Part shown: one piece after another, positions 3,840 to 36,653 of the stretch
How positions within the stretch are numbered: the stretch's first letter is position 1
Layout: the number at the start of each line of letters is the position of its first letter
NCBI GenBank assembly: GCA_023264735.1
Contig: JAHFVD010000026.1
Location: 28,033-92,032 of the forward strand
DNA: 64,000 nt
Reading direction: 5' to 3'
Source of the DNA: Mycobacterium sp.
GTDB lineage: Bacteria; Actinomycetota; Actinomycetes; Mycobacteriales; Mycobacteriaceae
Made by a program: the position numbers and the translations under genes
Notes under the pieces: generated by a model
Databases searched by the model: none
Told to the model about the DNA's origin: nothing
The model's input: the letters and a program-made list of their open reading frames with translations, nothing else

Positions 3840-3942
3840 ATGCGATCCAGCCTGAACAGTGGGTGCTGAGGAATAGCAGCGATAACACAACCTGTGGTCC
3901 GGAAGCCAAGCGCGGAGATGCGTTGCTCGCCTCGTCGGCGAC

Positions 3943-3972
3943 TTGACATGGACGTAATGCTCGAACACTATG
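3943..3972 (+). promoter_or_regulatory. Candidate promoter for the 4.0-7.7 kb operon
   Basis: TTGACA at 3943-3948 about 17-18 nt before CACTAT/ACTATG; divergent from a TetR gene. Confidence 0.3.
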
Positions 3973-4020
3973 TCTATACCGTGAAACCAGCGCCGGTTTC
4001 AGTTATCAAGGAGGACGAGC

Positions 4021-4080
4021 ATGACCGCTCGCATACGGTGTGGGCGTCCGCTTTTCCCGCGTTTCGGGGCAAGTCGGTGA
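4021..4080 (+). CDS. Putative 19-aa leader peptide MTARIRCGRPLFPRFGASR
   Basis: AAGGAGG Shine-Dalgarno just upstream of ATG 4021; its TGA (4078-4080) overlaps an in-frame GTG (4077) of the downstream gene (GTGA). Confidence 0.4.
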   Translation: MTARIRCGRPLFPRFGASR

Positions 4081-6173: not shown

Positions 6174-6176
6174 GCC

Positions 6177-6923
6177 ATGGCAGCTAGGAATCAGTCCATA
6201 TCCCTGGCATTCGGGTACGCGTTCTTTGTGCTGTATCTGTTAGGAATCGTCGTCGTTGCCGGCTTCATTCCCCCACCCTCACCGAGTTGGGGACCCGAAG
6301 CCGTCAGTGCGTTCTTCCGCAATCGGCACGAGCGGATCTTGGTCGGCATGTCAATCTGCGCCTTCGCTTCTGTGCTCTACCTCCCCTGGGGAGTGGCCAT
6401 CGCGGGACAGATGTTGCGCACCGAGCGCGCGCGATTCCCCGCATTGACAATCATCCAAGTCATCGCCGCTGGGCTTGGCTCTGTATTTTTCGCGATCTCA
6501 CCATTTCTTTGGCTGACAATCGCCTACCGCGCCGGTCACGGCGGAGATATCTCCATGGCACTCAACGACTTCGCATGGATCTCGTGGATCGTCAGTTGGC
6601 CATTCTTCTTCATCCAGGCGGGCGCCTTCGGCTTGAGTCTTCTGATGTACCGCACCGTGGTCATTCCGAGGTGGGTCGGTTACCTGAGCCTATGGTTCGC
6701 CTTCAGCATGTTTCCTGCCAGCGCGATCGTGTTCTTCTACTCGGGCCCCCTGGCGTGGAATGGGGTTTTCGCGCTGTATCTGCCGCTGACCCTGTTTGCG
6801 CTGTGGTACAACGTGGCATCGTTCTGGACGCTGAAGGCCATTCGACAAGAGGCGCTGCTGGACGGTTCCGGAACCGCCGACAGCACAAAGCTTCCCGTAC
6901 CGAGTCCGCAGCAAGTCTCATGA
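6177..6923 (+). CDS. Multi-pass membrane protein
   Basis: 248 aa, multiple hydrophobic segments; paralogous to the next ORF. Confidence 0.7.
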   Translation: MAARNQSISLAFGYAFFVLYLLGIVVVAGFIPPPSPSWGPEAVSAFFRNRHERILVGMSICAFASVLYLPWGVAIAGQMLRTERARFPALTIIQVIAAGLGSVFFAISPFLWLTIAYRAGHGGDISMALNDFAWISWIVSWPFFFIQAGAFGLSLLMYRTVVIPRWVGYLSLWFAFSMFPASAIVFFYSGPLAWNGVFALYLPLTLFALWYNVASFWTLKAIRQEALLDGSGTADSTKLPVPSPQQVS

Positions 6924-7690
6924 CGCAGACCGATCCCGATATTGTGGACACCGTCAATCGCTCCCGGCGTGCCCGAATGCCGAAGTGGTGCATATGGTCG
7001 GGGCCGGCGTTCACACTGCTGTTCGCCATCGGATTCTGGGCCGTAGCGCGCATGGTGCCACCGCCCGCACCGAGCTTCACGGCTCAACAGGTGGCTGACA
7101 TCTTCGCGTCGAACCGGTTCCGCATCCGACTTGGGCTGATGATATCCATGGCCTCATCGACGTTGTTCTTCCCCTTCGTTGCAGTGATGTCGTCATATCT
7201 GCGCCGGATCGAAGGGCAATACTCCCCGATGGCCTACGTCCAGCTAGCCGGTGGCACAGCGTCGATCTGCGTATTCATCTTCCCGCTGATGAGCCTGCAG
7301 GCGGCCAACTTTAGGGCGGACCGGGATCCGGAAGTCGTACTGGCACTGAGTGATATCGGATGGATTCCGTTCGTCGGGCTCTTCGGCCCACCCTTCATGC
7401 AATGCGTCGCCATTGCAGTTGCCGTGCTGCAGGACAAGCGATCTATTCCCATCTGGCCGCGCTGGGTCGGCTATTTCAACATCTGGATCGCGATTCTCTA
7501 CCTGCCGGGCCTGCTGCTGGTGTTCTTCAAGTCCGGTCCACTCGCATGGAATGGCCTGGTGTGCTGGTGGCTGCCGGCGGCCGCATTCTTCTCATGGATA
7601 CTGGTGATGGCCTGGGTCATGCTGTCCAGCCCCGACGCAGTGACGCGCAAAGTGAGCGCGAGCCCGAAAAATGAGGTAGCCACATCGTAA
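6920..7690 (+). CDS. Multi-pass membrane protein, paralogue of 6177-6923
   Basis: ATG at 6920 overlapping the upstream TGA (ATGA); shared P-PSP-fw motif, SGPLAWNG and PRWVGY segments. Confidence 0.75.
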   Translation: MTQTDPDIVDTVNRSRRARMPKWCIWSGPAFTLLFAIGFWAVARMVPPPAPSFTAQQVADIFASNRFRIRLGLMISMASSTLFFPFVAVMSSYLRRIEGQYSPMAYVQLAGGTASICVFIFPLMSLQAANFRADRDPEVVLALSDIGWIPFVGLFGPPFMQCVAIAVAVLQDKRSIPIWPRWVGYFNIWIAILYLPGLLLVFFKSGPLAWNGLVCWWLPAAAFFSWILVMAWVMLSSPDAVTRKVSASPKNEVATS

Positions 7691-7752
7691 TTTCCCGGAG
7701 GACGCCACGGGTGCCCTTGTCATGGCAACCCAGGTCGCCTACCTAAACCGCG

Positions 7753-9363
7753 CTAACCCTTCGCATGATCGCGAAGAGCCGTCTGCGCGGCCAGCTTTCC
7801 CGGCAGGGCGCACACACCACCGACGGGATGGGTGCCGGCCCCGCTGAGGTAAAGACCTTTGACCGGGGTGCGGTAGGCGCCGAATCCGGCGGCCGGCTTC
7901 AGCGGTCCGAAGCGGGTGATCAACGGATCGACGTGATAGACGTTTCCGGCGGGCGCGTTGAACCGCTCTTCGATATCGGGGCCGCCCAACACCGCCCGGT
8001 CGATCTCGAGGCTGTCCAGCCCCTCGTAGTACAGCGCACTGTCGCGCAGCACCGAGTCACCGATCTTGTCGCGGACGTCTTCCCAGGGCTCCCGCGGCGT
8101 CACGGGGATCACGCCCGACCACAGCCACAGGTTGCTCTTGCCCGGGGGCGCCTGGGTGGGGTCGACCGCTGAGGGAATGATCGCGCAGCTCACCGGCACC
8201 GGGTCGGGCCATTCGCCGCGCACCAGTGAGTTCCACCCGGCGTCCTGCTCCTCCAAGGTGTGCCATGCCACCAGGTACTTGCGCAGATCGAGGTCGTTGC
8301 CCCGCCACTTCTCGTGCCGTCGCATCGACACTTCGCCGTCGATGGCGACGTTGATCTTCAGCGAGGTGGCGTGTGTCTTGCGGATCGGAATGTCCTTGGC
8401 ACGCGCGGAGAGTCTGCTGTCCAAAACTCCCTTTGGCAGCAACTCGTTGAGGGTGATCACCGGATTGCAGGTGCTGATCACAGCCGTGCGCGCCTTGACG
8501 ACCTGCCCGGTATCGAGCTCGACACCGGTGACCTGATCACCGGCCATGACGAACTCCTGGACCCGGCTGTTGGTGTGCACGGTTCCGCCGAGGGCGAGCA
8601 GGCAGCGATGGAGCGCCGCAGGCAACGCACCGGTGCCACCGACCGGCATCGCGTTCGCAACCTTTTGCACCACACCGAGATAGATCATCGCCCACGCCGT
8701 CATGTCGAGGCGCATCTGGGAGAAGGCGGCCATCGCAGCCAAGGCGCCCTTGGGCAGTTCTGAGTCGAAGGTCTCTTCGAGGAACTCGGTGTGCGATGCG
8801 GTGGCCATATTCCGCAGCGACCACAGTCGTTTGGGGTGGCGGGCCGCCCGCCCGACGGCCTTGCCCATCTCGGCATTCCACGGCCGCAGCGGATGGGACT
8901 TCATGTAGGCGACCACCACGTCCATGGCCGGGTCCAGAGCATTGGCCAGGTCCAGCCACGTGCGTGCATCCTTCGGCGAAAATTTGCGCAGTTCGTCGGC
9001 GGTCCGGCTGGCGTCCTTCCAGATCGCCAACGAGCTTCCGTCGGGCGCCAATTGGACGTGGGCAGGGTCGACCGAGATCTGCCGCAGCCCGTACTTGTGC
9101 AGCTCGAGATCTTCGGCGACGCCCGACAACCGGAAGATCCCGGTGAGCTGGATCGCGCCTTCGTTGAAGAAGTGTCCGGGTGCACTGGGCAGGGTCGCAT
9201 TGGTCGCGGTCATGCCCCCGACGAGCGATGATGCTTCGACGACGGCGACGCTATGGCCCGCACGGGCGAGATAACAGGCGGCCGTCAGCCCGTTGTGCCC
9301 CGCCCCGACGATGACATAATCGACTTCGGCGGGCAGGGGTTGGGGTTGGGTTTGCGATGACAC
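7753..9363 (-). CDS. FAD-dependent oxidoreductase, phytoene desaturase/carotenoid isomerase-like
   Basis: N-terminal VDYVIVGAGHNGLTAACYLARAGHSVAVVEA dinucleotide fold; C-terminal GLYLSGAGTHPVGGVCALPGKLAA. Confidence 0.85.
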   Translation of the reverse strand: MSSQTQPQPLPAEVDYVIVGAGHNGLTAACYLARAGHSVAVVEASSLVGGMTATNATLPSAPGHFFNEGAIQLTGIFRLSGVAEDLELHKYGLRQISVDPAHVQLAPDGSSLAIWKDASRTADELRKFSPKDARTWLDLANALDPAMDVVVAYMKSHPLRPWNAEMGKAVGRAARHPKRLWSLRNMATASHTEFLEETFDSELPKGALAAMAAFSQMRLDMTAWAMIYLGVVQKVANAMPVGGTGALPAALHRCLLALGGTVHTNSRVQEFVMAGDQVTGVELDTGQVVKARTAVISTCNPVITLNELLPKGVLDSRLSARAKDIPIRKTHATSLKINVAIDGEVSMRRHEKWRGNDLDLRKYLVAWHTLEEQDAGWNSLVRGEWPDPVPVSCAIIPSAVDPTQAPPGKSNLWLWSGVIPVTPREPWEDVRDKIGDSVLRDSALYYEGLDSLEIDRAVLGGPDIEERFNAPAGNVYHVDPLITRFGPLKPAAGFGAYRTPVKGLYLSGAGTHPVGGVCALPGKLAAQTALRDHAKG

Positions 9364-9407
9364 GGGGTGTAGTTCTCCTGGTTGACGGTTACGGCCCTGA
9401 TAGACGA

Positions 9408-10415
9408 TTAAGGCACAGTGGGGCCGGGGAGCATGTACGACGGCGGGGTGATGATCGAGTCCGGATTGACCGACATCCAGCTCCAGGGAATGAAGTACGC
9501 AAGCGCGGCCCACACGGCGCAGAACCCGATGACGGCCAACAGCTTCACGAGAGTGCGGAGGCTTTCGGGCCAGCGCTGGATTCCACGGTGCAGGAAGGGA
9601 TTTCCATCGGCACTATCATGTGCTGACATCCTCAGGTAGGTGAATCCGGCGGCGTAGATCGCGACGAAGAGGCTCTCGTACACCGGGAACTGATGGGGGG
9701 TGCCGGCGAAGAGCGTGAACGCCTCCCAGGTACGGGGAAACGCGTACACCCGGGTGCGGATGAACACCTGCTCGATCACGATGTCCACCCCGAAGATAGC
9801 CACGAACGCGATGCTGAACGAGCGGATGTTGGCGATGCCCGGGTAGCGCCGTCGCAGCGCGAGAATGAGGCGGCATTCGATGGCGGCCAGGCCGATGCCG
9901 AGGTAGAGATACTGGGGCACGAACCACGCCAGCCCCTCCGCGTAGCGGGTCGGGCCCTGGTGCAGCGGAAAGAACGCCAACCACGATCCGGCGTTGAGCG
10001 CGTGGGCATTCCAGGCGAACGTGTAGTGGAAGTAGTTGATCAGCGGGTCGATACCCGACGCCAACAATGAGCCGATCACGATCATGCCGTCGAGCGTCAG
10101 CCGCCGCTGGACGATCAACGGTTTGATGAGGAACACCCAGATGGTCCCGGCCGCGATCAGCAGACTGACGACTTCGATGACGCGGAGCACGACCAGTGCG
10201 GTGCCGTCGAAGGTGTCCGGCCCCTGGATGGGTGCCGCCCCGAACTGGGTGTCGGACAGGATCCAGCGCCCCCAGGCCTGACCGACGAAGAGGATCCACC
10301 CGACACCCAGCAGCGCCCATAGGGATACGGCACCGCGCCGCGCTTCGGCGCCGACCGTCTGTGAGGTCAGTGGGCCGGTGAGCTTGTCGGTCAACACGGG
10401 CTGATCCACCGTCAA
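9408..10415 (-). CDS. AveC-like (spirocyclase family) membrane protein
   Basis: 335 aa polytopic; same architecture as the 13343-14206 product (SG-DPLINYF/ EP-VDTLG segments). Confidence 0.6.
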   Translation of the reverse strand: MTVDQPVLTDKLTGPLTSQTVGAEARRGAVSLWALLGVGWILFVGQAWGRWILSDTQFGAAPIQGPDTFDGTALVVLRVIEVVSLLIAAGTIWVFLIKPLIVQRRLTLDGMIVIGSLLASGIDPLINYFHYTFAWNAHALNAGSWLAFFPLHQGPTRYAEGLAWFVPQYLYLGIGLAAIECRLILALRRRYPGIANIRSFSIAFVAIFGVDIVIEQVFIRTRVYAFPRTWEAFTLFAGTPHQFPVYESLFVAIYAAGFTYLRMSAHDSADGNPFLHRGIQRWPESLRTLVKLLAVIGFCAVWAALAYFIPWSWMSVNPDSIITPPSYMLPGPTVP

Positions 10416-11521
10416 CGATTGCCGATGAAGGTGGCGGTCTCACCCGTCGGCGCGGACAGGCCGAGCAGCTTGGCCAACAGTTGGCTGGCCGGGTTGTTCA
10501 GTGCCATCGGCGAATCCGCGGGCATCAGGCCCATCGTGATCATCATGTGTGCGGCGCGCACCATGATGATGGACAGTTTGGTGGCGGCGAGGATCTCGTA
10601 GTAGTCGACGTCAACCGGAGTGTGACCGGTGATCGACGCGTAGTACGCAAGGGTGGCGTCACGATCGGGAATCCCTTCTGGCAGCGGCAGTCCGATCCCT
10701 TCGGTGTGGTGCCGCATCAGGAACAGCCACCAGCCGAGGTCGAGTTCACGGCTGCCCAGGGTCACCATCTCCCAGTCGAGGACCGCGGATGCCGCGAGAT
10801 CGTCACTGAAGATGATGTTGCCGACCCGAGCATCCCCCCAGTTCAACACCTTTGGCGTCGGCCGCGCGGGAACGTTGTCGATGAGCCACTCGAGTGCGCG
10901 CTCGATGGTCGGATTCGGCTCACCCTCGGCCCCCCAAGCGAACGACTCGCGCCAATTGGCGATCTGCGCATGCACCCCGCTGCCGTTGGCATCGGTGTCC
11001 AGGAAGTCCAGACCGAGCGCCTGCCAGTCCGCAGCGTGAATCTGCGCGAGTGCCGTCAGGCTGTTGTGCCACATGACCGTTCGTTGCTCGGGCGTGAGGT
11101 CGAGAACCCAGCCGCCCGCGGTGAACGGCGGGTCGTCGGAGGGCACCCGGCCATCGACACGCTGCATCACCAGGAATGGCGAGCCGAACACCGCGGGATC
11201 CTTCTCAAAGAAGTACACCTCGGGTACCGGCACCCCCACCGAGCCGAGCGCGCTGATGACGCTGGCTTCCTTCCCGAGGTCATAGGACGCGAACACGCCC
11301 TGCCCGGCGGGCTGTACTCGGGCCACCATCTGCCGGGTCTGGGTCTGTCCGTCCTGGTTCCACGAGGCGGTGAAGAGCACCGTTTCGTTGGACAGCCCCG
11401 CCGACGCGGGCACATCGAGGTCGGTGACCCGGACTTGCTGGGCCCCATCGATTTTCGACTCGAGCCAGGCAGCTAGCCGCAGCGACGCGGCTTCGGTGTC
11501 GATCTCGTTCTTCAACGCCAT
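10412..11521 (-). CDS. Phosphotransferase family protein (APH-like)
   Basis: VLNWGDARVGNIIFSDDLAASAVLDWEMVTLGSRELDLGWW; ATG at 11521. Confidence 0.85.
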   Translation of the reverse strand: MALKNEIDTEAASLRLAAWLESKIDGAQQVRVTDLDVPASAGLSNETVLFTASWNQDGQTQTRQMVARVQPAGQGVFASYDLGKEASVISALGSVGVPVPEVYFFEKDPAVFGSPFLVMQRVDGRVPSDDPPFTAGGWVLDLTPEQRTVMWHNSLTALAQIHAADWQALGLDFLDTDANGSGVHAQIANWRESFAWGAEGEPNPTIERALEWLIDNVPARPTPKVLNWGDARVGNIIFSDDLAASAVLDWEMVTLGSRELDLGWWLFLMRHHTEGIGLPLPEGIPDRDATLAYYASITGHTPVDVDYYEILAATKLSIIMVRAAHMMITMGLMPADSPMALNNPASQLLAKLLGLSAPTGETATFIGNR

Positions 11522-11534
11522 CTCGGTGTCCCTC

Positions 11535-12647
11535 TCAGACCGTCGTCGATTGCAAGCGGTGGGCCAGCATTGCGCGCTGGTAGCGGTCGAACCAGATCTC
11601 CTGGTAGGTGCAGTGGGTGACCCGCCCGTGCTCGTCCTCCCAGCGGTAGACGCTGTCGTGGAACGAGACATTGGGCCACGCGGGAATCACAGCCGAGGCG
11701 ATCGCCTCGCCGCGGAAGCGGTATACCTCGCCGTGGTCGTCCTGCGCGGTGATCTCCTGGCGGGTGGCCAGGTGGATCGTCGGGTGATACTCCAACACGT
11801 CACGGCGCACGGAGGTCACCGATCGGGATTCGTCGCCGCGCTGCACCCAGGCGAAGTGATGCGAGGGCCGGTTGCCCACCTCGTAGAGGCCGGCCCAGCG
11901 GGGATCGGTGTCGAGCGGTTCGAAGCTGATCTGGTTGAACACCAGGTCCGGCCCGAAGTACATGGGCGACCATCCGACCGGGGGGCTGGGGACCGCTCCG
12001 CGCCGTTCCACCCGGACCTGGCGCCAGGAGCGGTCCCTCGGGGCGAAACAGTCGACGTCATACGTGGTGCCGTCCAAGTGCAGCTGGCCGGTGACATGCA
12101 TGAACTGCTCGCTGCCGCCGGACTGACGGGACTGGTCGTGATGGGCGTCCTCGCCGGGCATCACGTGCCCGCGGGCCAGCAGCGGAGTGACCGCCTCGGC
12201 GATGAGGTCGAACGCCATGCGGTCGTCGACAGCGCTATAGCGCAACCGGGCGGTCTTGCCGGGCTCGATGAACTCGATCGACAGACCGTTGTCGGTGGTG
12301 ATCGTGTTCCCGTCGACGGTCGGCCACGGCATCGTGATCTCGTAGTCGTGAAAGGCGATGTCGGTCAACTCGATGTTGTCGTTGCCCTGGAACACGCACA
12401 CGCCGCCCTGCGACAGCGGGAACGCCGGCTGATACCGGATGTAGAGGAACGCGCCGATCGCGGCCTCGGGCACCGAGAAGCCGAAATAGTGGGTGTGGAT
12501 CAGGTGCGGATCCCAGGTCTCGCCCGGTCGGGGCCGTGGGATCAGCAGATCGGTATCCCCGGAGTGAACAGCCAAACCACCCGGTCCCGCATTCGAACTC
12601 ACCACGCACCGTCCCTCATCGTGAACTTGCTCGACCTTCGCTAACAT
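11535..12647 (-). CDS. Uncharacterised protein with RDxSW motif (DUF7064-like)
   Basis: GQLHLDGTTYDVDCFAPRDRSWRQVRV, comparable to RDHSWG proteins at 4077 and 52442; adjacent to a phosphotransferase. Confidence 0.6.
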   Translation of the reverse strand: MLAKVEQVHDEGRCVVSSNAGPGGLAVHSGDTDLLIPRPRPGETWDPHLIHTHYFGFSVPEAAIGAFLYIRYQPAFPLSQGGVCVFQGNDNIELTDIAFHDYEITMPWPTVDGNTITTDNGLSIEFIEPGKTARLRYSAVDDRMAFDLIAEAVTPLLARGHVMPGEDAHHDQSRQSGGSEQFMHVTGQLHLDGTTYDVDCFAPRDRSWRQVRVERRGAVPSPPVGWSPMYFGPDLVFNQISFEPLDTDPRWAGLYEVGNRPSHHFAWVQRGDESRSVTSVRRDVLEYHPTIHLATRQEITAQDDHGEVYRFRGEAIASAVIPAWPNVSFHDSVYRWEDEHGRVTHCTYQEIWFDRYQRAMLAHRLQSTTV

Positions 12648-12667
12648 AACGCTCAATGAACGGACTA

Positions 12668-12688
12668 TCAAGTATGAAAATTCATTCA
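12668..12688. promoter_or_regulatory. Candidate TetR operator copy 1, TCAAGTATGAAAATTCATTCA
   Basis: 20/21 identity to 14268-14288; abuts the TetR start codon at 12688. Confidence 0.55.
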
Positions 12689-13338
12689 TGTTGAAGAATC
12701 ACGGTGTGCCGCCAACCGAAAAGCCCGCGACGCGGACCGAACGCCAGCGCGAACGGACCCGCCGGCAACTGCTGGATGCTGGCCGGACGCTGATCGCCGC
12801 GAAAGGTGTTCCCGGACTTCGCATCCAGGAGATCACCGAGCAGGCCGATATCGCGCTGGGCTCGTTCTACAACTATTTCCCGTCCAAGGAAGAGTTTCTC
12901 GAAGCGATCATCACCGAGAGCCTCTCCGACCTGGCCTCGGCCACCATCAGCAATGTCGACGACGCGACCGATCCCGCCGAAGTCGTGGCCTTGGCCAACC
13001 TGCGGGTGATCCAACTGGCCTACACCGAGCCCGATTTCGCGCGGCTGATCGTCAACATCAGTCACTCCGAAGCACTGTTCGGCGCCGCCGTACACCCCCA
13101 CGCCCGGGTCGCCGTCGAACGCGGGATCGACACTGGCCGTTTCGATGTCGCCGATGTCGAGGTCCTGCTGACGGCGGTGATCGGCGGAGCGTTCGCGCTC
13201 ATCCGCGAGATCCTCGATGGGCGCCACGGCGATCATGCCGAGCGGGCCTTCGCCCGCCTTGTCCTGGCCGCACTGGGACTCAGCGCGGCCGAAGCCAAGA
13301 CTGTGGTCGCCAAGGTCGCCAAGCTCGAACGGCCCTGA
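12688..13338 (+). CDS. TetR/AcrR-family regulator
   Basis: HTH LRIQEITEQADIALGSFYNYFPSKEEFLEAI. Confidence 0.9.
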   Translation: MLKNHGVPPTEKPATRTERQRERTRRQLLDAGRTLIAAKGVPGLRIQEITEQADIALGSFYNYFPSKEEFLEAIITESLSDLASATISNVDDATDPAEVVALANLRVIQLAYTEPDFARLIVNISHSEALFGAAVHPHARVAVERGIDTGRFDVADVEVLLTAVIGGAFALIREILDGRHGDHAERAFARLVLAALGLSAAEAKTVVAKVAKLERP

Positions 13339-13342
13339 CCGG

Positions 13343-14206
13343 TCAGGCCGGGACCTTGGCCCTGGCCAACTCGTCGGCTCCGAATACGGCCGCCTTGAGG
13401 ATGCCGACCTTCGACTTGATGAACACCTCGTCCTCGGGACGGGCGACCACAAACGACAACACCCACACGAAGGTGAGCGCCAGGCCCAGCGTCACCAGCC
13501 AGGCGAAATGGGTCACCCACAGCGACGCGTCGAGATTCAGTGCGGTCCACACCGGCCAGGCCGCCGCGCCGTTGGCGATTCCGTCCGACATCGGGATGAA
13601 CGCAATGACCAGGGCCAACCGCCACCCTGGCAGATGCGCCCGCATCCGGTAGATCAGAGCGCCGGCAGTCATCGGCATCAGTGGGTTGACGCACACCCAC
13701 CACAGCGGCAGACCCCAGAAGTTCAGCGGCTGCGGTCCGTAGTACTCGTAGGCACCCATCAGGACGCCCGGGCTCTCCAGAAAGATGTTGATGACCACGT
13801 CGATCACATAGAGCTGGAAGATCTGTTTGCGGGTCACCCCGGTGGAGTAGATGCGATAGGCCAGGTAGGCCAGGCCGCCCACGTACCAGATGTAGACGAA
13901 GTTGATGAACAGCGGAAAGTCGCGACCCATCGAGGAGAAGGTCATCGTCACCGCGCCCTGGCGGATATAGCAGAGACCCAAGGTGTCCACGATCGGCTCG
14001 AACAGGCACGCGATCCCGCCGCCGATCAGGCAGAACAGCAGCAGCGGCCCCTTGCCGACGATCAGGTGTTTGATCGCGAAGAACACCATGACGACCACTG
14101 GAATGCCCAGGAAGATCGTGAAGATCACCTCGGGTACGAATGGCATCGGGGTGGTCGGGTGCGCGGGGATCGGCGGTGCGGCAAGCACGTACTCGAGCGC
14201 AGACAT
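13343..14206 (-). CDS. AveC-like (spirocyclase family) membrane protein
   Basis: 287 aa polytopic; paralogue of 9408-10415. Confidence 0.6.
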   Translation of the reverse strand: MSALEYVLAAPPIPAHPTTPMPFVPEVIFTIFLGIPVVVMVFFAIKHLIVGKGPLLLFCLIGGGIACLFEPIVDTLGLCYIRQGAVTMTFSSMGRDFPLFINFVYIWYVGGLAYLAYRIYSTGVTRKQIFQLYVIDVVINIFLESPGVLMGAYEYYGPQPLNFWGLPLWWVCVNPLMPMTAGALIYRMRAHLPGWRLALVIAFIPMSDGIANGAAAWPVWTALNLDASLWVTHFAWLVTLGLALTFVWVLSFVVARPEDEVFIKSKVGILKAAVFGADELARAKVPA

Positions 14207-14267
14207 GTCTAACTCCTTCGGTGCTGATGCATCGGCACCGCGAGCGTAACCTCGAGTGAATCAGTAT

Positions 14268-14288
14268 TCAAGTATGAAAATTGATTCA
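14268..14288. promoter_or_regulatory. Candidate TetR operator copy 2, TCAAGTATGAAAATTGATTCA
   Basis: Lies upstream of the 13343-14206 gene; part of TGAATCA-N18-TGATTCA inverted repeat (14257-14288). Confidence 0.55.
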
Positions 14289-29150: not shown

Positions 29151-29408
29151 CTATTCCGCTGGGCGGAAATAGGGTTCAACCGTGCCGCTGAGCTTGACCA
29201 CCATCGGGTTTCCGCGGCGATCCTTGGCGGTAGGAACTTCAACACGCACCCAACCCTCGGTCACGTTGTATTCGTGAACATTGGTCTTCTCGACGCCATT
29301 AAAGCGAATGCCCACGTCGCGGCGGAGCACCTCTTCGCTATAGAAGGGGCTGCGCGGGTCGATGGAGAGGTGATTCGGTGGAACGTCTGTGTTCTGATCC
29401 TCGGACAT
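29151..29408 (-). CDS. DUF3297-family small protein
   Basis: PPNHLSIDPRSPFYSEEVLRRDVGIRFNGVEKTNVHEYNVTEGWVRVEV. Confidence 0.7.
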   Translation of the reverse strand: MSEDQNTDVPPNHLSIDPRSPFYSEEVLRRDVGIRFNGVEKTNVHEYNVTEGWVRVEVPTAKDRRGNPMVVKLSGTVEPYFRPAE

Positions 29409-29742
29409 GATGGCTTTCGTTTGGCTGCGGCGTGAGGTTCTTCTTGATTCTCGTAGAACCTACGCGACCCTGTAACAGCGATGCGGTACGACCGCCGAGA
29501 GATGGAGGCGCGGAGTTCGAAAGTGCGCAGACTGGACGCGATGCTTGAGGCGTTACAGCGAAGGTTTCGGGGCGTCGTCGGCGGCTAACCGGCTAACCGG
29601 CTATTGCCAACGGAGTCAAACTCTTGGGCTTGTCCAACCGTGCCCTGGCGTTGCGCTCCACAAACAGCGGCACAAAGTCCCTGATCGGACAACCACCGTC
29701 AACCGCTGGGCGAAGTCAACTCACCCACTCCGAGCCGCCCGC

Positions 29743-29884
29743 GTGGCTGACGCTGCGCGAGGCGGGTCTGCTGGATTGCGAGCGGCGCGGCACGTGGGTG
29801 TACTACTGGGTGGTGCCGGCGGCCATGGCCCAGTTGTCGGCGGTATTGACACTCGACCTGAATCTGGAAAGGACCCCGCGATGA
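29743..29884 (+). pseudogene. C-terminal remnant of an ArsR-family regulator
   Basis: LREAGLLDCERRGTWVYYWVVPAAMAQLSAVL aligns with LRTAGLIDSERRGSWVYYRVIPEALQQLSILL of the intact ArsR at 31362; N-terminal half missing. Confidence 0.6.
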
Positions 29885-30309
29885 GCGAAAAACCTTCGGT
29901 GTTGTTCGTCTGCGTGCACAACGCCGGACGTTCACAGATGGCCGCGGGATTCCTCTCGGCGCTCGCTGGCGACGCCATCGAAGTCCGCTCGGCAGGCAGT
30001 GCCCCGGGCAACGCCGTCAACCCCGCCGCGGTAGAGGCCATGGCCGAAGTCGGCATCGACATCTCCGACCAAACGCCCAAGATCCTCACCCCCGACGCGG
30101 TGGAAGCCTCCGATGTGGTGATCACCATGGGCTGCGGCGACACCTGCCCCATTTTCCCGGGCAAGAGCTACCGCGACTGGGTACTGGAGGATCCGGCGGG
30201 CAAGGGTGTGGACGCTGTACGTCCCATCCGCGACCAAATCAAGACGCGGATCGAAGGCCTCATCACTGAACTGCTGACCGACACCGCCGATACCGAAAAC
30301 CGCCTTTAG
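29881..30309 (+). CDS. arsC: Arsenate reductase (LMW-PTP-fold, arsenate-mycothiol transferase-like)
   Basis: MSEKPSVLFVCVHNAGRSQMAAGFLSALAG; ITMGCGDTCPIFPGKSYRDWVLEDPAGK. Confidence 0.92.
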   Translation: MSEKPSVLFVCVHNAGRSQMAAGFLSALAGDAIEVRSAGSAPGNAVNPAAVEAMAEVGIDISDQTPKILTPDAVEASDVVITMGCGDTCPIFPGKSYRDWVLEDPAGKGVDAVRPIRDQIKTRIEGLITELLTDTADTENRL

Positions 30310-30665
30310 GAACAGCAATTCGGATCGAGCACGGCGACCAGCGCGGCGACCGCGTCGCGGTGCGGACGGTGATAGACGTTCATACCTCGCCGGGTCGACT
30401 CGACCAACCCGGCATTCCGCAACTGGGTCAGGTGGTGGCTGGCCGTGGACTCGCCAACCCCGATCGCGGCGGCCAAGTCTCGACTGTTCTCCTCGCCATC
30501 AGCCGAACCGAACAGCAGCGACATGATCTTGACTCGTGCCGGGTCGGCCAGCGCCTTGAGCCGCAATGCAACGTGCAACGCGTCCTCGTCACTCATCACA
30601 CCCGCCGCCACCGGCGCGCAACACACCGGCGACGACATGTCGATCAAGGGCAACGTCTTGGGCAT
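30306..30665 (-). CDS. arsR: ArsR/SmtB-family metalloregulator
   Basis: LKALADPARVKIMSLL...GVGESTASHHLTQLRNAGLVESTRRGMNVYHR; Cys pairs SPVCCAP and PNCCS. Confidence 0.88.
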   Translation of the reverse strand: MPKTLPLIDMSSPVCCAPVAAGVMSDEDALHVALRLKALADPARVKIMSLLFGSADGEENSRDLAAAIGVGESTASHHLTQLRNAGLVESTRRGMNVYHRPHRDAVAALVAVLDPNCCS

Positions 30666-30686
30666 CACCCAATCATGCCACAAAGC

Positions 30687-30744
30687 TTGACATATATCGA
30701 AAAGGTGGCATGCTGGGCATCGTCCGATAGTTCGACATATGTCG
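30687..30744. promoter_or_regulatory. Divergent arsR/arsI operator region
   Basis: TTGACATATATCGAA (30687-30701) and perfect palindrome CGACATATGTCG (30733-30744). Confidence 0.65.
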
Positions 30745-30767
30745 CACAGGTCCCAAGGAGGCTCCCC

Positions 30768-31241
30768 ATGTCCCGCATCCAGTTGGCACTCAACGTCGAT
30801 GACATCGACGAGGCCATCACCTTCTACTCCAAGCTGTTCAACACCGAGCCGGCCAAGGTCAAGCCGGGCTACGCCAACTTCGCCATCGCCGAACCGCCCC
30901 TGAAACTCGTACTCCTGCAAAACCCCGGCCACGGCGGCAGCCTCAACCACCTCGGCGTCGAGGTGGAGTCCAGCGACCAGGTGCACGCCGAAATCGGCCG
31001 CCTGACCAATGCGGGCATGTTCACCGAGGAGGAGCTCGGCACCACCTGTTGCTTCGCTACCCAGGACAAGGTCTGGGTCACCGGTCCCGGAGGCGAGCGC
31101 TGGGAGGTCTACACCAAGCTGGCCGACTCCGACAGCTTCGGCATCAGCCCGCAGATCGGCACCCAGTCCGACCAGGCCGTCTGCTGCGGCACAGCGGCCG
31201 ACGAAAACGCCCCTGCCACAACCCAAGCCAGCTGCTGCTAG
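30768..31241 (+). CDS. ArsI/CadI-family heavy metal resistance metalloenzyme
   Basis: VOC-fold MSRIQLALNVDDIDEAITFYSKLFNTEPAKVKPGYANFAIAEPPLKLVL; TTCCFATQDKVWVTGPGGERWEVY; Cys-rich tail. Confidence 0.85.
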   Translation: MSRIQLALNVDDIDEAITFYSKLFNTEPAKVKPGYANFAIAEPPLKLVLLQNPGHGGSLNHLGVEVESSDQVHAEIGRLTNAGMFTEEELGTTCCFATQDKVWVTGPGGERWEVYTKLADSDSFGISPQIGTQSDQAVCCGTAADENAPATTQASCC

Positions 31242-31361
31242 TCCTGCATGTCAGCCCTGGGAACGGCGGCCGCCAGACTCCTTGGCGGCTGCCGCTCCCG
31301 GGATGCTTCGTTCACGATTTGTTCGCTTGTGCATTGATTCGATGACTGTCAATATCGATGA

Positions 31362-31718
31362 GTGTCGAAGTCGTCCGAAAGCGAGTGCTGCGAGGTCGCA
31401 CCTCTGGTCCGAGAGCCGCTGAGCATTGCGGCCGCGGCGGAGTTGGCGGCGATGCTGAAAGCGTTGTCGGACCCGATTCGACTTCGCCTGCTCAGCCTGA
31501 TTGCCAGCCACGGAGGTGGCGAGGCGTGCGTCTGCGACATCTCGCAAGGCATCGATGTCGGCCAGCCCACGATCTCCCACCATCTCAAGGTGCTGCGCAC
31601 CGCGGGGCTGATCGACAGCGAGCGACGCGGCTCGTGGGTGTACTACCGCGTGATTCCCGAAGCACTGCAACAGCTTTCGATACTGCTGGGCGCCGATAGC
31701 CTGGCCGGGATCCTGTGA
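31362..31718 (+). CDS. ArsR-family regulator (second intact copy)
   Basis: ALSDPIRLRLLSLIASHGGGEACVCDISQGIDVGQPTISHHLKVLRTAGL; ELCVCDL-type metal site. Confidence 0.9.
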   Translation: MSKSSESECCEVAPLVREPLSIAAAAELAAMLKALSDPIRLRLLSLIASHGGGEACVCDISQGIDVGQPTISHHLKVLRTAGLIDSERRGSWVYYRVIPEALQQLSILLGADSLAGIL

Positions 31719-32467
31719 TGGACACCATCGGTCTGCCGCGAAGGCTGTTGGCCGAGTTCGTCGGCAGCGCACTGTTGGTCACCGTTGTTGTCGGATCAGG
31801 GATCGCCGCTGCCCAGCTCTCCCCCAACGACGTCGGACTGCAGCTCCTCGAGAATTCGACGGCGACCGTGTTCGGACTGGCGGTGCTGATCCTGCTATTC
31901 GGCCCGATCTCCGGCGCACACTTCAACCCGGTCGTCACCGCATCCGACTGGCTCTTGGGTCGCCGGGCCGGCACCGGCATCACCACCCGCGATGCACTCG
32001 CCTACACGGGGGTCCAAATCGCTGGAGCGATCAGCGGCTCCTGGCTGGCCAACCTCATGTTCGATCGCCAGGTCTTCGAGATCGCGACCAAAGACCGCAT
32101 CACCACCGGGCATCTCGTCGGCGAAGTCGTGGCCACCGCAGGATTGATCGCGCTGATCTTCGCGTTGGCCCGTACCGGCCGCGCCGGAATGTCAGCTGCA
32201 GCCGTCGGCGCCTACATCGGCGCGGCGTACTGGTTCACCAGCTCGACCTCGTTCGCCAATCCCGCTGTCACGATTGGGCGGATCTTCTCCGACACGTTCG
32301 CCGGCATCGCACCAAGCTCAGCGCCAGGATTCATCGCGGCCCAAATCGTCGGTGCCCTCATCGGTTTGGCCCTGATCGCCACCCTGTACCCCGACATCGC
32401 CGCCGACGCCGATGACGTCGTCGTCCCCCATCCCCACGCCGACAGACACCCCAGCGACTCCGCTTAA
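31718..32467 (+). CDS. MIP/aquaporin-family channel in the ars operon
   Basis: Channel motifs GAHFNPVVT and FANPAVTIGR; ATGA coupling to arsR. Confidence 0.85.
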   Translation: MDTIGLPRRLLAEFVGSALLVTVVVGSGIAAAQLSPNDVGLQLLENSTATVFGLAVLILLFGPISGAHFNPVVTASDWLLGRRAGTGITTRDALAYTGVQIAGAISGSWLANLMFDRQVFEIATKDRITTGHLVGEVVATAGLIALIFALARTGRAGMSAAAVGAYIGAAYWFTSSTSFANPAVTIGRIFSDTFAGIAPSSAPGFIAAQIVGALIGLALIATLYPDIAADADDVVVPHPHADRHPSDSA

Positions 32468-32538
32468 CCCAGCACCACCGGTATCCAACCGGCGGCGGTA
32501 CCCAAACCCACTCCCAACGCCTTTCGAGGAGCCCCGTC

Positions 32539-33963
32539 ATGGCATCTCGCCATATCGTCGCGGTCGGCGGCAGCGACGCCGGCATCAGTGCGGCACTGCG
32601 CATCCGCGAACTCGACCCCGCCACCGCCGTCACCGTCGTGGTCGCCGACGCCTACCCCAACTTCTCCATCTGCGGCATCCCTTACTACGTCTCCGGTGAG
32701 GTCACCCACTGGACCAACCTCGCCCACCGCACCGCAGCCGACCTGGCCGCCACCGGCATGCACGTTCTCACCGATACCCGCGCCACCCGCATCAATGTCG
32801 ACGCCCACACCCTCGACGTGCTCGGCCCAGACGGCACCCCCGTCCAACTCGCCTACGACGCCCTGATCGTGGGCACCGGCGCCGTCAGCGCCCGCCCACC
32901 CATCACCGGCCTGTCCGGACCCGACGCGCTCGGCCCTGAGCACGGCGTGCATCTTCTGCACTCCATGGGCGACACCTTCGCCGTCATGGACTCACTACAG
33001 CAACGCAATCCGGCCACTGCGGTCATCATTGGCGCCGGCTACATCGGCCTGGAGATGGCGGAAGCACTCACCACGCGCGGCATTGCCGTCACCCAGATCG
33101 AAGCGCTGCCCGAAGTGCTGCCGACCGTCGACCCCGAACTCGGCGCCCTGGTCCACGCCGAACTCGAGCGCCACGGCGTCGAGGTCCTCACCAACACCGC
33201 CGTCACCGCCATCAACCGGACCGACAACGGCGCCTTGACCGTCGCCGCTCAGCACGACAGCAAAACATTAACCCGCACAGTTGATTTCGTCCTCGTCGTC
33301 GTCGGCGTGCGACCCGACACCGAACTGGCCACCGACGCCGGTGCCGAACTCGGCGTCAAGGGCGCCATCGCTGTCGATGACACCATGCGCACTAATCTGA
33401 CTGACGTTTTCGCGGCCGGAGACTGCGTGCACACCCACCACCGACTGCTCGGCCTCACCTGGCTACCACTTGGCACCACCGCGCACAAGCAGGGCCGTGT
33501 CGCTGGTGAAAACGCCATCGGCGGGCGGGCGCGCTTCGCCGGGAGCCTTGGCACTCAAGTCGTCAAGGTCTTCGACCTCATCGCCGCCCGCAGCGGCCTA
33601 CGCGAACACGAAGCCCTAGCAGCACAACGAGGTTGGCAGCCGGTCAGCACCACCGCAACTCCCGACGACCACAAGGCCTACTACCCCGGAGCAACACCCA
33701 TCCACATCCGCATCACCGGCGACGACACCACCGGCGCGCTGCTCGGCGCACAACTCATCGGCCACCGCAGCGCCGAAGTATCCAAACGCGTCGACACCTA
33801 CGCCACCGCCCTGTTCCACCACATGACCGTCGACGCGCTCAGCGAACTCGACCTGTCCTACACCCCGCCGCTCGGTTCACCATGGGACGCCACCCAGATG
33901 GCCACCCAAGCCTGGGTACGCGAACACCAACTCGCCCAACGGCAAGAGAGTTTGGCGGGGTAG
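32539..33963 (+). CDS. FAD-dependent CoA-disulfide reductase-like oxidoreductase
   Basis: FSICGIPYYVSGEV single-Cys motif; AVIIGAGYIGLEMAEAL; DVFAAGDCVHTHHRLLG. Confidence 0.85.
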   Translation: MASRHIVAVGGSDAGISAALRIRELDPATAVTVVVADAYPNFSICGIPYYVSGEVTHWTNLAHRTAADLAATGMHVLTDTRATRINVDAHTLDVLGPDGTPVQLAYDALIVGTGAVSARPPITGLSGPDALGPEHGVHLLHSMGDTFAVMDSLQQRNPATAVIIGAGYIGLEMAEALTTRGIAVTQIEALPEVLPTVDPELGALVHAELERHGVEVLTNTAVTAINRTDNGALTVAAQHDSKTLTRTVDFVLVVVGVRPDTELATDAGAELGVKGAIAVDDTMRTNLTDVFAAGDCVHTHHRLLGLTWLPLGTTAHKQGRVAGENAIGGRARFAGSLGTQVVKVFDLIAARSGLREHEALAAQRGWQPVSTTATPDDHKAYYPGATPIHIRITGDDTTGALLGAQLIGHRSAEVSKRVDTYATALFHHMTVDALSELDLSYTPPLGSPWDATQMATQAWVREHQLAQRQESLAG

Positions 33964-34259
33964 GTCAACATTCAGTCATCGAGCGCGCTAACGCAGAGCA
34001 CATACAATTAGCACGGCTTGAATCAGTCAAATAGCAGGAATCTAATCAGTCAATTAGCATAATTCCAGCTCAACCTGACACCAACAGATCGTTGGCCCAA
34101 CTCAGCCGTCTTTCCCGTGAACCTCCGGCGTGAAGACAGCGCCGAGCATCACTGGTTCTCAATACCTCGGTGTGGAGACACCCAAGACCAACCGCAGTTC
34201 ATAAATGAGGTGACGGTTGTCGTCAAACCTCCACTAACCTGAGCCCACCGCAAATGCGG

Positions 34260-34292
34260 AAACCCGCCCCGACCGAAGTCAGGGCGGGTTTT
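34260..34292. terminator. Intrinsic terminator-like hairpin outside the distal att copy
   Basis: AAACCCGCCCCGA-N7-TCAGGGCGGGTTTT, one mismatch in the stem. Confidence 0.6.
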
Positions 34293-34298
34293 CCAAAA

Positions 34299-34341
34299 GT
34301 GGAGCTAAGGGGATTCGAACCCCTGACCCCCACACTGCCAG
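34299..34341. repeat. Distal att copy (tRNA-Ala 3' end fragment)
   Basis: GTGGAGCTAAGGGGATTCGAACCCCTGACCCCCACACTGCCAG, identical to 36580-36622. Confidence 0.9.
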
Positions 34342-34413
34342 GAATGGGCAGAGAGCGTGACTAGGCATGATAGGCCGCGAATTGTCGTGTAGGAGACGTA
34401 GTTCAGGCAGCAA

Positions 34414-34448
34414 CTGTCGTCAGCGTTGTCGTCAAAACTGTCGTCAGC
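34414..34448. repeat. Three iterated TGTCGTCA elements, possible integrase arm sites
   Basis: CTGTCGTCAG (34414), TTGTCGTCAA (34426), CTGTCGTCAG (34439); further TTGTCGTCAA at 34217. Confidence 0.45.
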
Positions 34449-34499
34449 ACGCGAGGGACATGCTGATACGGCGGAGTCGGAGTCAGCGCAGTTTCGACG

Positions 34500-35258
34500 C
34501 TAGGAATGTACCGATGCGACAAGCAGCTCGGCAGTCAGCTCGATGTCGTCCAGCGTGACCGCTTGACCTTCCGGGATGCTTCTGATGCGGCTTAGTGACC
34601 GTCTCGCATGAGTACCCAACCAAAGCTGCACGTGGAGCAGGCAATCGGTGCGCAACTGCGGATCAACATTCGAAAGTTGCTGTCGCACAGCGGAACCAGC
34701 AGTCGGATCGAGAGTCAACCGTACGATGTCCAGTAGGTCGCTGGCTTCCTTGGCTGCGCCGCGGTCCATCAGTGATTGCAGCTTCATCGCGATGAGTGGC
34801 CCGGGCTCGGCGACGCGCACGGTCACCGGCGCGAGTCCTGGCGTCTGTAGCGACATCGGGGATGCCGTGGCTGCAGCCCAGTTGTGCGCCATGACGTGAA
34901 GGCGCCCGGTCGCATCGTTAGGAAGTTCCTCAAGTGCCGCGTCCGTTACCCCAAGAACGTCGATCTCGACAGTGCCGGCCACGGTGCTCAGCAGTGCCCC
35001 CGCCGGGCCGCGCGGGGTAGCGCCAGCATCGAGGAGCAGTTCAAGCTGCGATGGTTCGTCGTCCCGCCGGCGATCCACGGTGTCCAGATCACCAGTCGCG
35101 CGATGGGGTCGCCCTAGTCGGCACACGACCGCCAGTCCACCGATCAGCACAACCGGGCGTGACGTCTGTGCCTCAATGCGCGGGATTGCGTGGACCAGCT
35201 GCTCCATCGCCGTGCCGGCAAGGTTCACCACCGGCACAGGCCTCGGGCTACCAGACAC
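34500..35258 (-). CDS. Nucleotidyltransferase-fold protein (AbiEii/MenT-like candidate toxin)
   Basis: GGLAVVCRLGRPHRATGDLDTVD resembles the MNT GG-A-hG-pR-T-DLD signature; GPLIAMKLQSLMDRGAAKEASDLLDIVRL; start GTG 35258 or ATG 35207. Confidence 0.7.
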   Translation of the reverse strand: MSGSPRPVPVVNLAGTAMEQLVHAIPRIEAQTSRPVVLIGGLAVVCRLGRPHRATGDLDTVDRRRDDEPSQLELLLDAGATPRGPAGALLSTVAGTVEIDVLGVTDAALEELPNDATGRLHVMAHNWAAATASPMSLQTPGLAPVTVRVAEPGPLIAMKLQSLMDRGAAKEASDLLDIVRLTLDPTAGSAVRQQLSNVDPQLRTDCLLHVQLWLGTHARRSLSRIRSIPEGQAVTLDDIELTAELLVASVHS

Positions 35259-36306
35259 GCGCCCACGGTTCCGGCGGCGTCCACTGAGCGAGGATTTCGC
35301 GTCCCCGGCTCGGATCTTTGGCCAGGTCCAGGGCCACGAACAGCGGTCGAGCGATCGGCCAGCTCTCGCTGGATTCGGCGTGACGAACCCGCTCTGCACA
35401 AGCCGCCGCGACCGGGGCGGCCTTCAACGTTGCGGAGCGCGTGCTCGGATCGGCGGCGGGGCCGAGCACCTGTGTGGCACGGCGCAGAGTGCGCATGTCG
35501 GGGACATAGAAGTCGGCCGGATGGTCTGCGCGAAGTCCAACGGACGCCCCATAGAATGCGGCCGCCGTGGTGTCCGTCAGTGCCCAGCCAGTTCCGGCGT
35601 TGACGTCGTCATTAATGCGCAGGGCATCGCGAACCGCTCTGTCCCCCGGCGACGGCAACGACGCGACATCAGCTGTGACCGGACGCCAGGCCGATGCGAG
35701 ACCCCAGAACAGTTCCGGAATGGACGGGATGTGTTCGGCATCAATCAAATTCGCGCGCCGAAGGCGCGCCAGAACTTCTGAAACAGTGCTAGGCGCCCTG
35801 CCGATTCGATGAGCAAGCGAACGCACGCCGACAGACTGGGCCGGATTCAAGAGCAGTTCGACTGTGACTTCCAGGCCAGCTCGACCAGCGAACGGATCGT
35901 CGGAAGCCATCGTAAGCGTGTTCACTGGCGGAATATCGGCATGGACGTAGACTCCGGGTGCTGCCAGGTGTAGTCGACCGCGCAAGTCCAACCACCCCCA
36001 GCCGGCACTTTGCAACATCGCGCGTGCGTCTTCGGTGATCCGGTCCGCAATGAGCACACCGACTACGTGATTGCCAGCCCCGTTTTGAATTCGAGCAAGC
36101 TGATGCGCGAATTGGCCAAGCTGCCGCGGGAGTGCATCTGCTGATGCAAGTGTCCGATATTTGGCTTCAATGAGCAGGGTCCGACCGTCGGGAGTTCGGA
36201 CCTCGATATCGGCAGCGTCTCCAACAGAGTCGATCAGGGAAGCCGTCAGCCCTACCGCTTCTAGCGCGTCGACGAGCGCGTGTTCTGCGTCAGCCGCTCT
36301 CAGCAC
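35248..36306 (-). CDS. AbiEi-like wHTH protein with a possible PD-(D/E)xK-like N-terminal domain
   Basis: ADIEVRTPDGRTLLIEAKYRTL (D-x9-ExK pattern); wHTH VRSLAHRIGRAPSTVSEVLARLRRANLI; overlaps downstream NTase gene. Confidence 0.65.
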   Translation of the reverse strand: MLRAADAEHALVDALEAVGLTASLIDSVGDAADIEVRTPDGRTLLIEAKYRTLASADALPRQLGQFAHQLARIQNGAGNHVVGVLIADRITEDARAMLQSAGWGWLDLRGRLHLAAPGVYVHADIPPVNTLTMASDDPFAGRAGLEVTVELLLNPAQSVGVRSLAHRIGRAPSTVSEVLARLRRANLIDAEHIPSIPELFWGLASAWRPVTADVASLPSPGDRAVRDALRINDDVNAGTGWALTDTTAAAFYGASVGLRADHPADFYVPDMRTLRRATQVLGPAADPSTRSATLKAAPVAAACAERVRHAESSESWPIARPLFVALDLAKDPSRGREILAQWTPPEPWARVW

Positions 36307-36324
36307 AGGATCATTGTCTCTAAC

Positions 36325-36356
36325 GTTCGGTGTTCGGTCAATACCGAACACCGAAC
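36325..36356. promoter_or_regulatory. Operator-like perfect inverted repeat upstream of the AbiEi-like gene
   Basis: GTTCGGTGTTCGGT-CAAT-ACCGAACACCGAAC; each arm is a tandem GTTCGGT. Confidence 0.75.
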
Positions 36357-36543
36357 AGTCGGCTCGCCTGTGCCCCCCGACTCGCCGTTTTCGACAGCTG
36401 CGATACATCACTTGCCACATGGAACCCCGCGGGAAAGCCGGACTGTGTCCCGCAGTCTGAGTGTGGGGCGCGGGCGAAGGCTCAGACCACTGCGACCGGA
36501 GGCACAACTCTCGTCAATCGCTCCGCGCCCGCTCAACCCAGCA

Positions 36544-36575
36544 AAAAACCCGAAGTCATCTGACTTCGGGTTTTT
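36544..36575 (-). terminator. Intrinsic terminator downstream of tRNA-Ala
   Basis: AAAAACCCGAAGTCA-TC-TGACTTCGGGTTTTT, 15-bp perfect stem with A/T tracts. Confidence 0.85.
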
Positions 36576-36579
36576 CCTG

Positions 36580-36622
36580 GTGGAGCTAAGGGGATTCGAA
36601 CCCCTGACCCCCACACTGCCAG
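36580..36622. repeat. Proximal att copy within the tRNA-Ala gene
   Basis: Exact 43-bp match to 34299-34341. Confidence 0.9.
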
Positions 36623-36653
36623 TGTGGTGCGCTACCAACTGCGCCATAGCCCC
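36581..36653 (-). tRNA. tRNA-Ala (anticodon GGC)
   Basis: GGGGCTA...CTGGCAG anticodon loop...GGTTCGAATCC...TAGCTCCA; acceptor stem pairs. Confidence 0.93.

Follow-up and report, generated by a model that had tools for sequence, protein, structure and literature searches.

An integrase-less AbiE-like cassette bounded by tRNA-Ala(GGC) 3′ ends and candidate arm-type sites of AICE integrases in Mycobacterium

Results

A two-gene unit between two copies of the tRNA-Ala 3′ end

The window analysed here, 64,000 nucleotides of Mycobacterium sp. contig JAHFVD010000026.1, holds a single tRNA gene called by ARAGORN, tRNA-Ala(GGC), part of which is repeated at the far end of a small two-gene unit. Features are listed from the tRNA outwards, in window coordinates:

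36578–36653, minus strand: tRNA-Ala(GGC) gene (ARAGORN), the presumed integration target, whose 3′ part is the tRNA-proximal core
36580–36622, minus strand: tRNA-proximal copy of the 43-bp core (repeat search), the predicted att site adjoining the intact tRNA
36509–36517, minus strand: candidate proximal arm-type site, degenerate, reading TTGACGAGA with one mismatch to TTGACGACA (box comparison)
36325–36356, no strand: 32-bp perfect palindrome GTTCGGTGTTCGGT-ATTG-ACCGAACACCGAAC, a presumed autorepression operator (position upstream of the regulator's likely start; conservation)
35248–36306, minus strand: regulator in the AbiEi position and presumed antitoxin, 352 aa, with a weakly REase-like N-terminal domain, a central HTH and a C-terminal domain (domain searches, alignment)
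34500–35258, minus strand: AbiEii-type nucleotidyltransferase (NTase), presumed toxin, 252 aa from a likely GTG start (Pfam PF08843, conserved motif residues)
34415–34446, minus strand: candidate distal arm-type sites, three perfect TGACGACA boxes at a 12-bp pitch, the first beginning 107 bp ahead of the distal core (none in 100 shuffles; E 1.6e-24 with profile R1)
34299–34341, minus strand: distal copy of the 43-bp core (repeat search), which is also the tRNA-proximal core of the left-hand element
29420–34298, no strand: second tandem element, a decayed integrase-less arsenic-resistance island with cassette-type proximal sequence at its start (alignment to the island of genome G009)
29154–29408, minus strand: chromosomal gene for a protein of 85 aa, found immediately after tRNA-Ala where the site is empty and marking the far border of the insertions (comparison with relatives)

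The unit bounded by the two 43-bp copies of the tRNA-Ala(GGC) 3′ end measures 2,281 bp. The repeat is exact, the whole window has no third copy at up to three mismatches, and no further 43-nt copy is expected there by chance. Both this duplication and the two co-directional, overlapping genes between the repeats, with no integrase, had been described in a first-pass annotation of this DNA and are confirmed here, both genes lying on the minus strand. They are the only genes between the cores and neither is one for integration or transfer. No integrase was found between the repeats, the window gave no tblastn match to three integrases, and no oriT, excision factor or conjugation gene is present on the cassette.

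An AbiEii-type nucleotidyltransferase and an unusual regulator

The first-pass annotation had called the gene pair AbiE-like, and for the NTase this stands: it scores 23.6 bits against Pfam AbiEii (PF08843), narrowly passing the curated cut-off of 22.5. Its start is likely the GTG, the mechanical open reading frame beginning at 35399. Toxicity of AbiEii requires motifs I and II (hG[G/S]x15DhD), a K and, seven residues on, an R in motif III, and motif IV (+DxxD) (PMC3985639). The cassette protein has GGx15DLD, KLQSLMDR and DLLD, and in an alignment of seven members the 12 invariant positions include the residues GG..T.D.D, K..R and D..D; these match the toxicity motifs apart from a serine in place of the basic residue (K or R) that precedes DxxD. 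Three matches to the NTase lie in Rhodococcus plasmids and none in phage records.

The partner does not fit the AbiE label as well, since neither Pfam (searched to E 0.1) nor PADLOC (to E 1) matched it to an AbiEi model, and only generic HTH and weak NucS/REase similarities were returned. It had also been annotated as a plain wHTH protein, and this we correct: a domain of ~125 residues with weak REase/NucS similarity precedes the HTH, and the protein is longer than AbiEi. An AbiEi has an N-terminal wHTH followed by a C-terminal antitoxin domain; here the HTH is central. We considered a nuclease role for the N-terminal domain and dropped it because an IEAK-like motif is not kept among homologs. 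The regulator may still work like AbiEi. Searches with other resources gave little more. Neither cassette protein had a naming match in NCBIfam or PHROGs; PDB searches with the single sequences gave no match, and profile searches of PDB gave one weak match for the NTase, generic HTH and weak NucS matches for the regulator, and no close match to the MenT or MenA structures. AlphaFold2 models of the two proteins, built from 2–3 near-identical sequences each, reached pLDDT values of 40 and 45, too low for a fold search.

The regulator likely starts at a GTG that follows the 32-bp palindrome (the mechanical TTG frame begins at 36507). Three mycobacteria have exactly this palindrome, as does a copy on a Rhodococcus plasmid, even though the regulator encoded there is only 43% identical; a copy at tRNA-Leu, described below, has it nearly unchanged. 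This pattern of conservation is what would be expected of an autorepressor operator. We infer from homology that the cargo is an AbiE-like toxin–antitoxin operon, with the toxic and antitoxic activities assigned on the same basis.

Boxes at a fixed distance from the core mark the cassette ends

The key feature of the cassette, absent from the first-pass annotation, is the presence of candidate arm-type sites at both of its ends. Boxes that flank a core on both sides have the look of tyrosine integrase arm-type sites, as established for lambda-type integrases. Whatever the cargo, elements of this kind share a common distal end: three TGACGACA boxes, again at a 12-bp pitch, a stretch ending in a TGCCTGGTCA-like motif, and then the tRNA core. 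The distance from the first box to the core is 106–107 bp in most elements at tRNA-Ala and 105 bp in most at tRNA-Arg(ACG), although the cargo is unrelated. On the proximal side, most other elements have TTGACGACA-like boxes 40–125 bp past the core, and at least one box is present in most delimited elements.

At E ≤ 1e-8 a profile of the distal end (R1) matched 78 of the 397 Mycobacterium genomes, a count made by hand from the profile matches. Outside the genus, in a sample of the order, the best match had an E-value of 2.1e-7 and the remainder were at 1e-5 or weaker. A loose pattern scan also matched GC-rich sequence not followed by a core; these matches were discarded, and R1 was used for counting. 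Judging from the linkage described below, the TGACGACA boxes are probably the arm-type sites bound by an AICE integrase.

The same ends carry unrelated cargo, singly and in arrays

Eighteen delimited integrase-less units of up to 3.1 kb were classified by cargo: an AAA_14/DUF4143 ATPase in seven, BrnTA in four, an AbiE-like pair in three, and MazEF, a DUF5615 PIN-like pair, Fic and unknown cargo in one each. Representatives of the cargo calls were confirmed by Pfam, the others being made by similarity or reading. Arm-bearing BrnTA units of only ~0.82 kb occur at four loci. Larger integrase-less units carry arsenic genes (10.2 kb) or mce genes (10.2 kb). An AbiE-like pair other than that of the window, with a regulator of 336 aa and an NTase above the AbiEii cut-off, sits in a cassette with the same arms at tRNA-Arg(ACG) (L121:5511–8600).

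Units also stand in tandem. In genome G260 an array of four units at tRNA-Ala consists of ATPase, ATPase, MazEF and ParDE, the terminal ParDE unit being without a clear distal core; in G250 the order is ATPase, BrnTA, ATPase. Loci L107 and L108 are cassette arrays among those examined. Separately, a tRNA-proximal stretch of ~230 bp with repeated CTGATTCAAGC-like words is found in an ATPase cassette (L074:6750–6983), in the AbiE cassette of Mycobacterium sp. MBM (L044:9420–9735) and in the arsenic element of the window (33960–34299), and its being common to them suggests fusions by deletion between array neighbours.

Empty sites and exchange between species

The first-pass annotation had proposed looking in relatives for empty tRNA-Ala sites and for alternative cargo at the same tRNA, and we found both. 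Empty sites have the 85-aa protein gene (provisionally labelled by us DUF3297) ~90 bp after the tRNA core in G027 and G055 and slightly further away in G006. In the window this gene lies at 29154–29408, so that ~7 kb separate it from the tRNA; this insertion is made up of two elements, the two-gene cassette at 34299–36622 and the arsenic-resistance segment to its left. Alternative cargo is present between the same ends in dozens of genomes.

Mycobacterium sp. MBM has the same cassette, 2.3–2.4 kb long, at the same tRNA and with its own distal core. Between the window and MBM, DNA identity is 86–87% in the cassette genes, 73% in the MFS gene beside the tRNA and 79% in 3 kb of flank. Relatives that are nearer by their flanks carry an AAA_14 cassette (G024, 88%), an arsenic island (G009, 87%) and no such cassette (G044, 91%). 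Sequence comparison indicates that the cassette has been exchanged between species, by a movement that we infer.

Other copies are damaged or differently placed. In M. canariasense (L075) a truncated copy, with a truncated NTase, is fused to a foreign integrase, and in M. pinniadriaticum (G018) a copy with a disrupted NTase frame lies away from the tRNA-Ala of that genome, behind degenerate core-like sequence. A distant homolog (46–53% identity) forms a 2.08-kb integrase-less unit with a 51-bp flanking repeat at tRNA-Leu(GAG) of G056 (L061:8036–10170). This unit has no TGACGACA arms, and another attachment system is therefore to be expected there; Mycobacterium is known to have AICEs that use a serine recombinase and sit at tRNA-Leu (PMC3218068), which for the G056 copy is a lead only.

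Neighbouring and other elements of the same genome

The left-hand element aligns over 4.25 kb (29750–33933) at 83% identity to an arsenic island of 10.2 kb in G009 (L046), in which both cores and the same arms are present. Its proximal end resembles those of L044, L074 and L060, and between 29545 and 33963 it contains arsenic-type genes (ArsC-like, ArsR-like regulators, a VOC protein, aquaporin-like and an NAD-dependent oxidoreductase). Since no recognisable distal core of this element was found in the window, we regard it as decayed.

Elsewhere in the same genome (locus L005, C32:35000–54000), an 8.9-kb element with an integrase occupies tRNA-Ala(CGC) (5253–14273 of the locus). Reading, rather than profile, assigns it an apparent gene for a major capsid protein and a replication-like one, and the whole resembles a remnant prophage or a phage satellite; just beyond its distal core lies an AbiEii-like gene (3908–4981). 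The integrase of this element was rejected as a helper for the cassette because its flanking repeats read AGTACGCA.

AICEs with the same core and arms

A 23.4-kb element beside tRNA-Ala in G004 has the same arms and the same core, with cores at both of its ends, and encodes a tyrosine integrase (PF00589), RepSA (PF20199) and FtsK/SpoIIIE (PF01580), the gene set expected of an AICE. Reports of AICEs in Mycobacteriaceae are rare (PMC8190616). The integrase and distal end of the G004 type are present in several further genomes. Integrases at least 58% identical occur in 21 of the 397 Mycobacterium genomes, each of which has the arm profile too, a co-occurrence that is partly trivial, as AICEs bring the arms themselves. 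The arm profile is present without such an integrase in 57 genomes; a 22nd genome, whose integrase is 37% identical, lacks any arm match, and G204 has a fragment of the integrase only. The genome of the window has no homolog of the AICE integrase at E ≤ 1e-60.

At all 12 loci examined with an integrase of at least 58% identity, the integrase lies beside tRNA-Ala or tRNA-Arg, or else its contig contains that core, tRNA-Arg being the site of the clade at ~58%. The TGACGACA boxes are found between the tRNA and the integrase gene in 11 of them; in the remaining one, G189, examined as two overlapping stretches and counted once, the boxes and the tRNA-Arg core are elsewhere in the contig. In G177 (L122:7117–17502) a 10.2-kb integrase-less mce island comes immediately after an AICE whose attachment ends are the same.

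Discussion

From the boundaries of the cassette, its arms with their fixed spacing, the shared ends on unrelated cargo, the arrays, the empty sites, the exchange between species and the linkage of arms to AICE integrases, all of them read from sequence, we conclude that the cassette is probably a non-autonomous attachment-site unit that can be mobilised, in cis or in trans, by the AICE integrase of another element. The first-pass annotation had proposed a minimal, non-autonomous, integrase-dependent island, and that proposal is well supported by the MBM copy with the same borders, by the empty sites and by the other cargo in dozens of genomes.

The predicted course of events is as follows. The core would be the tRNA-Ala 3′ end, and the cassette ends would be arm-type sites for the tyrosine integrase of an AICE that uses the same tRNA. 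A visiting AICE would supply the integrase, for which the arms and cores of the cassette would make a complete att pair; by pairing arms and core the enzyme would excise a circle made of the cassette by itself or of the cassette and an adjoining AICE or cassette, and the circle would be inserted beside a tRNA-Ala end, rebuilding the tRNA. Because each insertion would restore a usable core, repeated insertion at the same end could stack units into tandem arrays. Between cells the cassette would travel by conjugation in cis with an AICE, the likely route, or as a circle. Recombination in trans and conjugative co-transfer are thus predictions of the model, as are toxicity, autorepression and defence on the side of the cargo: the regulator would repress its own promoter at the 32-bp palindrome and neutralise the NTase, addiction to the toxin would help to hold a cassette unable to move on its own and penalise its loss, and phage defence is possible.

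With no close AICE integrase in its genome, the cassette may be frozen where it now lies. Against mobility we also count the mismatch in the proximal arm of the window. Most cassettes are in genomes without the integrase, which fits past as well as present mobility.

That small units of this kind are simply what is left of a larger AICE after loss of its integrase and transfer genes, CIME-like remnants that no longer move, is in our judgement unlikely, even though their arms are those of AICEs and CIMEs are defined as such remnants (PMC5704250). Erosion does occur at such loci: L162 keeps integrase fragments, the arsenic element of the window is without a distal core and the NTase of M. canariasense is truncated. 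A remnant, however, does not readily account for a cassette whose borders are unchanged between two species and whose sequence differs less than the flanks do, or for ~0.82-kb arm-bearing BrnTA units at four loci; no AICE relic is seen inside the window unit, and the constant spacing of the arms points to selection acting on the ends. The related suggestion of the first-pass annotation, that the unit is the decayed core of a larger island, is likewise disfavoured by MBM, which has this unit, 2.3–2.4 kb long and unchanged in its boundaries, at the corresponding tRNA.

We give very little credence to a helper integrase from a prophage or phage satellite inserting at tRNA-Ala, which would make the cassette a phage satellite. 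Several actinobacterial phages and prophages do have 30–36 nt of the core, and a 5.9-kb IMG/VR contig with phage-like structural genes, possibly a chimaera, ends in the same arms and a tRNA-Arg core (L199, 5789–5923). This contig is nevertheless the only exact pattern match in IMG/VR, a collection of 50,697 phage records has no arm match beyond the core, and the integrase-bearing elements found at this tRNA (L075 and L047) have other flanking repeats; a phage helper was sought in both collections and not found. It is harder still to believe that the locus arose with no site-specific recombination at all, ordinary resident genes having become framed by tRNA 3′ ends through homologous recombination or duplication: the core is long enough for homologous recombination, and deletions between cores must occur in arrays, but the fixed distance between arms and core, the unrelated cargo with the same ends, the empty sites and the species-discordant identity would all stay unexplained.

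Mobilisation by AICE integrases, the reading we prefer, offers an explanation of how two-gene toxin–antitoxin units spread among mycobacteria with no vehicle in sight, and it points to a helper whose action in cis and in trans can be tested with a 2-kb substrate. The ~110-bp arm module beside a tRNA 3′ end is a searchable mark for mobile toxin–antitoxin and possible defence genes that would be missed by island finders keyed to integrases, and small cassettes with defined ends may be of use for site-specific integration in mycobacteria. More tentatively, and with slightly more doubt than conviction, we suggest that mycobacteria have an integron-like system on their tRNA genes: a shared pool of one-operon cassettes, mostly toxin–antitoxin or toxin-like, defined only by the tRNA core and phased TGACGACA arms, picked up and reshuffled in arrays by the integrases of AICEs passing through, and tied to no single element.

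Relation to known systems

As in the AbiE type IV toxin–antitoxin systems (PMC3985639) and mycobacterial MenAT, the cassette has two overlapping co-directional genes, the regulator first and the NTase second, the hGGx15DhD, K..R and DxxD residues and an upstream inverted repeat; it differs from them in the extra N-terminal domain of a regulator that matches no AbiEi model. With AICEs of the pSAM2 type (PMC3218068) it has in common the core and arms of the 23-kb G004 element, whereas it lacks RepSA, the FtsK-like translocase and the tyrosine integrase.

Integron cassettes are small single-operon units, often toxin–antitoxin, arrayed at one site and dependent on a tyrosine recombinase supplied from elsewhere. 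The tRNA cassettes resemble them, by analogy, in each of these respects; unlike integron cassettes, no attC hairpin-type site or IntI is proposed for them, and their core is a tRNA 3′ end flanked by arms of the phage type.

The islands at ssrA of Dehalococcoides are also tandem at an RNA gene, and some have no recombinase, these being believed to travel with their neighbours; the islands differ in their serine recombinase, larger size and reductive dehalogenase cargo, and the parts of that account available to us describe no conserved arm-type module (PMC3146451).

CIMEs and their site-specific accretion are known from the ICESt1 family (PMC5704250, and Pavlovic 2004 as cited there). Like a CIME, the cassette is bounded by att sites of a conjugative element, with 43-bp cores at both ends and arms that match those of integrase-bearing AICEs, is without integration and transfer genes, and belongs to units that stack in tandem at one site. 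CIMEs, however, are described as ICEs that lost genes (PMC5704250), whereas the cassettes are of 0.8–3 kb, consist of a single operon that is mostly toxin–antitoxin or toxin-like, recur with fixed borders across species and keep a conserved attachment end on unrelated cargo, in the present host without a helper. In the open-licence literature we found no report of arm-bearing integrase-less toxin–antitoxin cassettes or of cassette arrays at tRNA genes. Since CIMEs, accretion and recombinase-less islands are known, we therefore judge the cassettes to be a new variant on a known theme.
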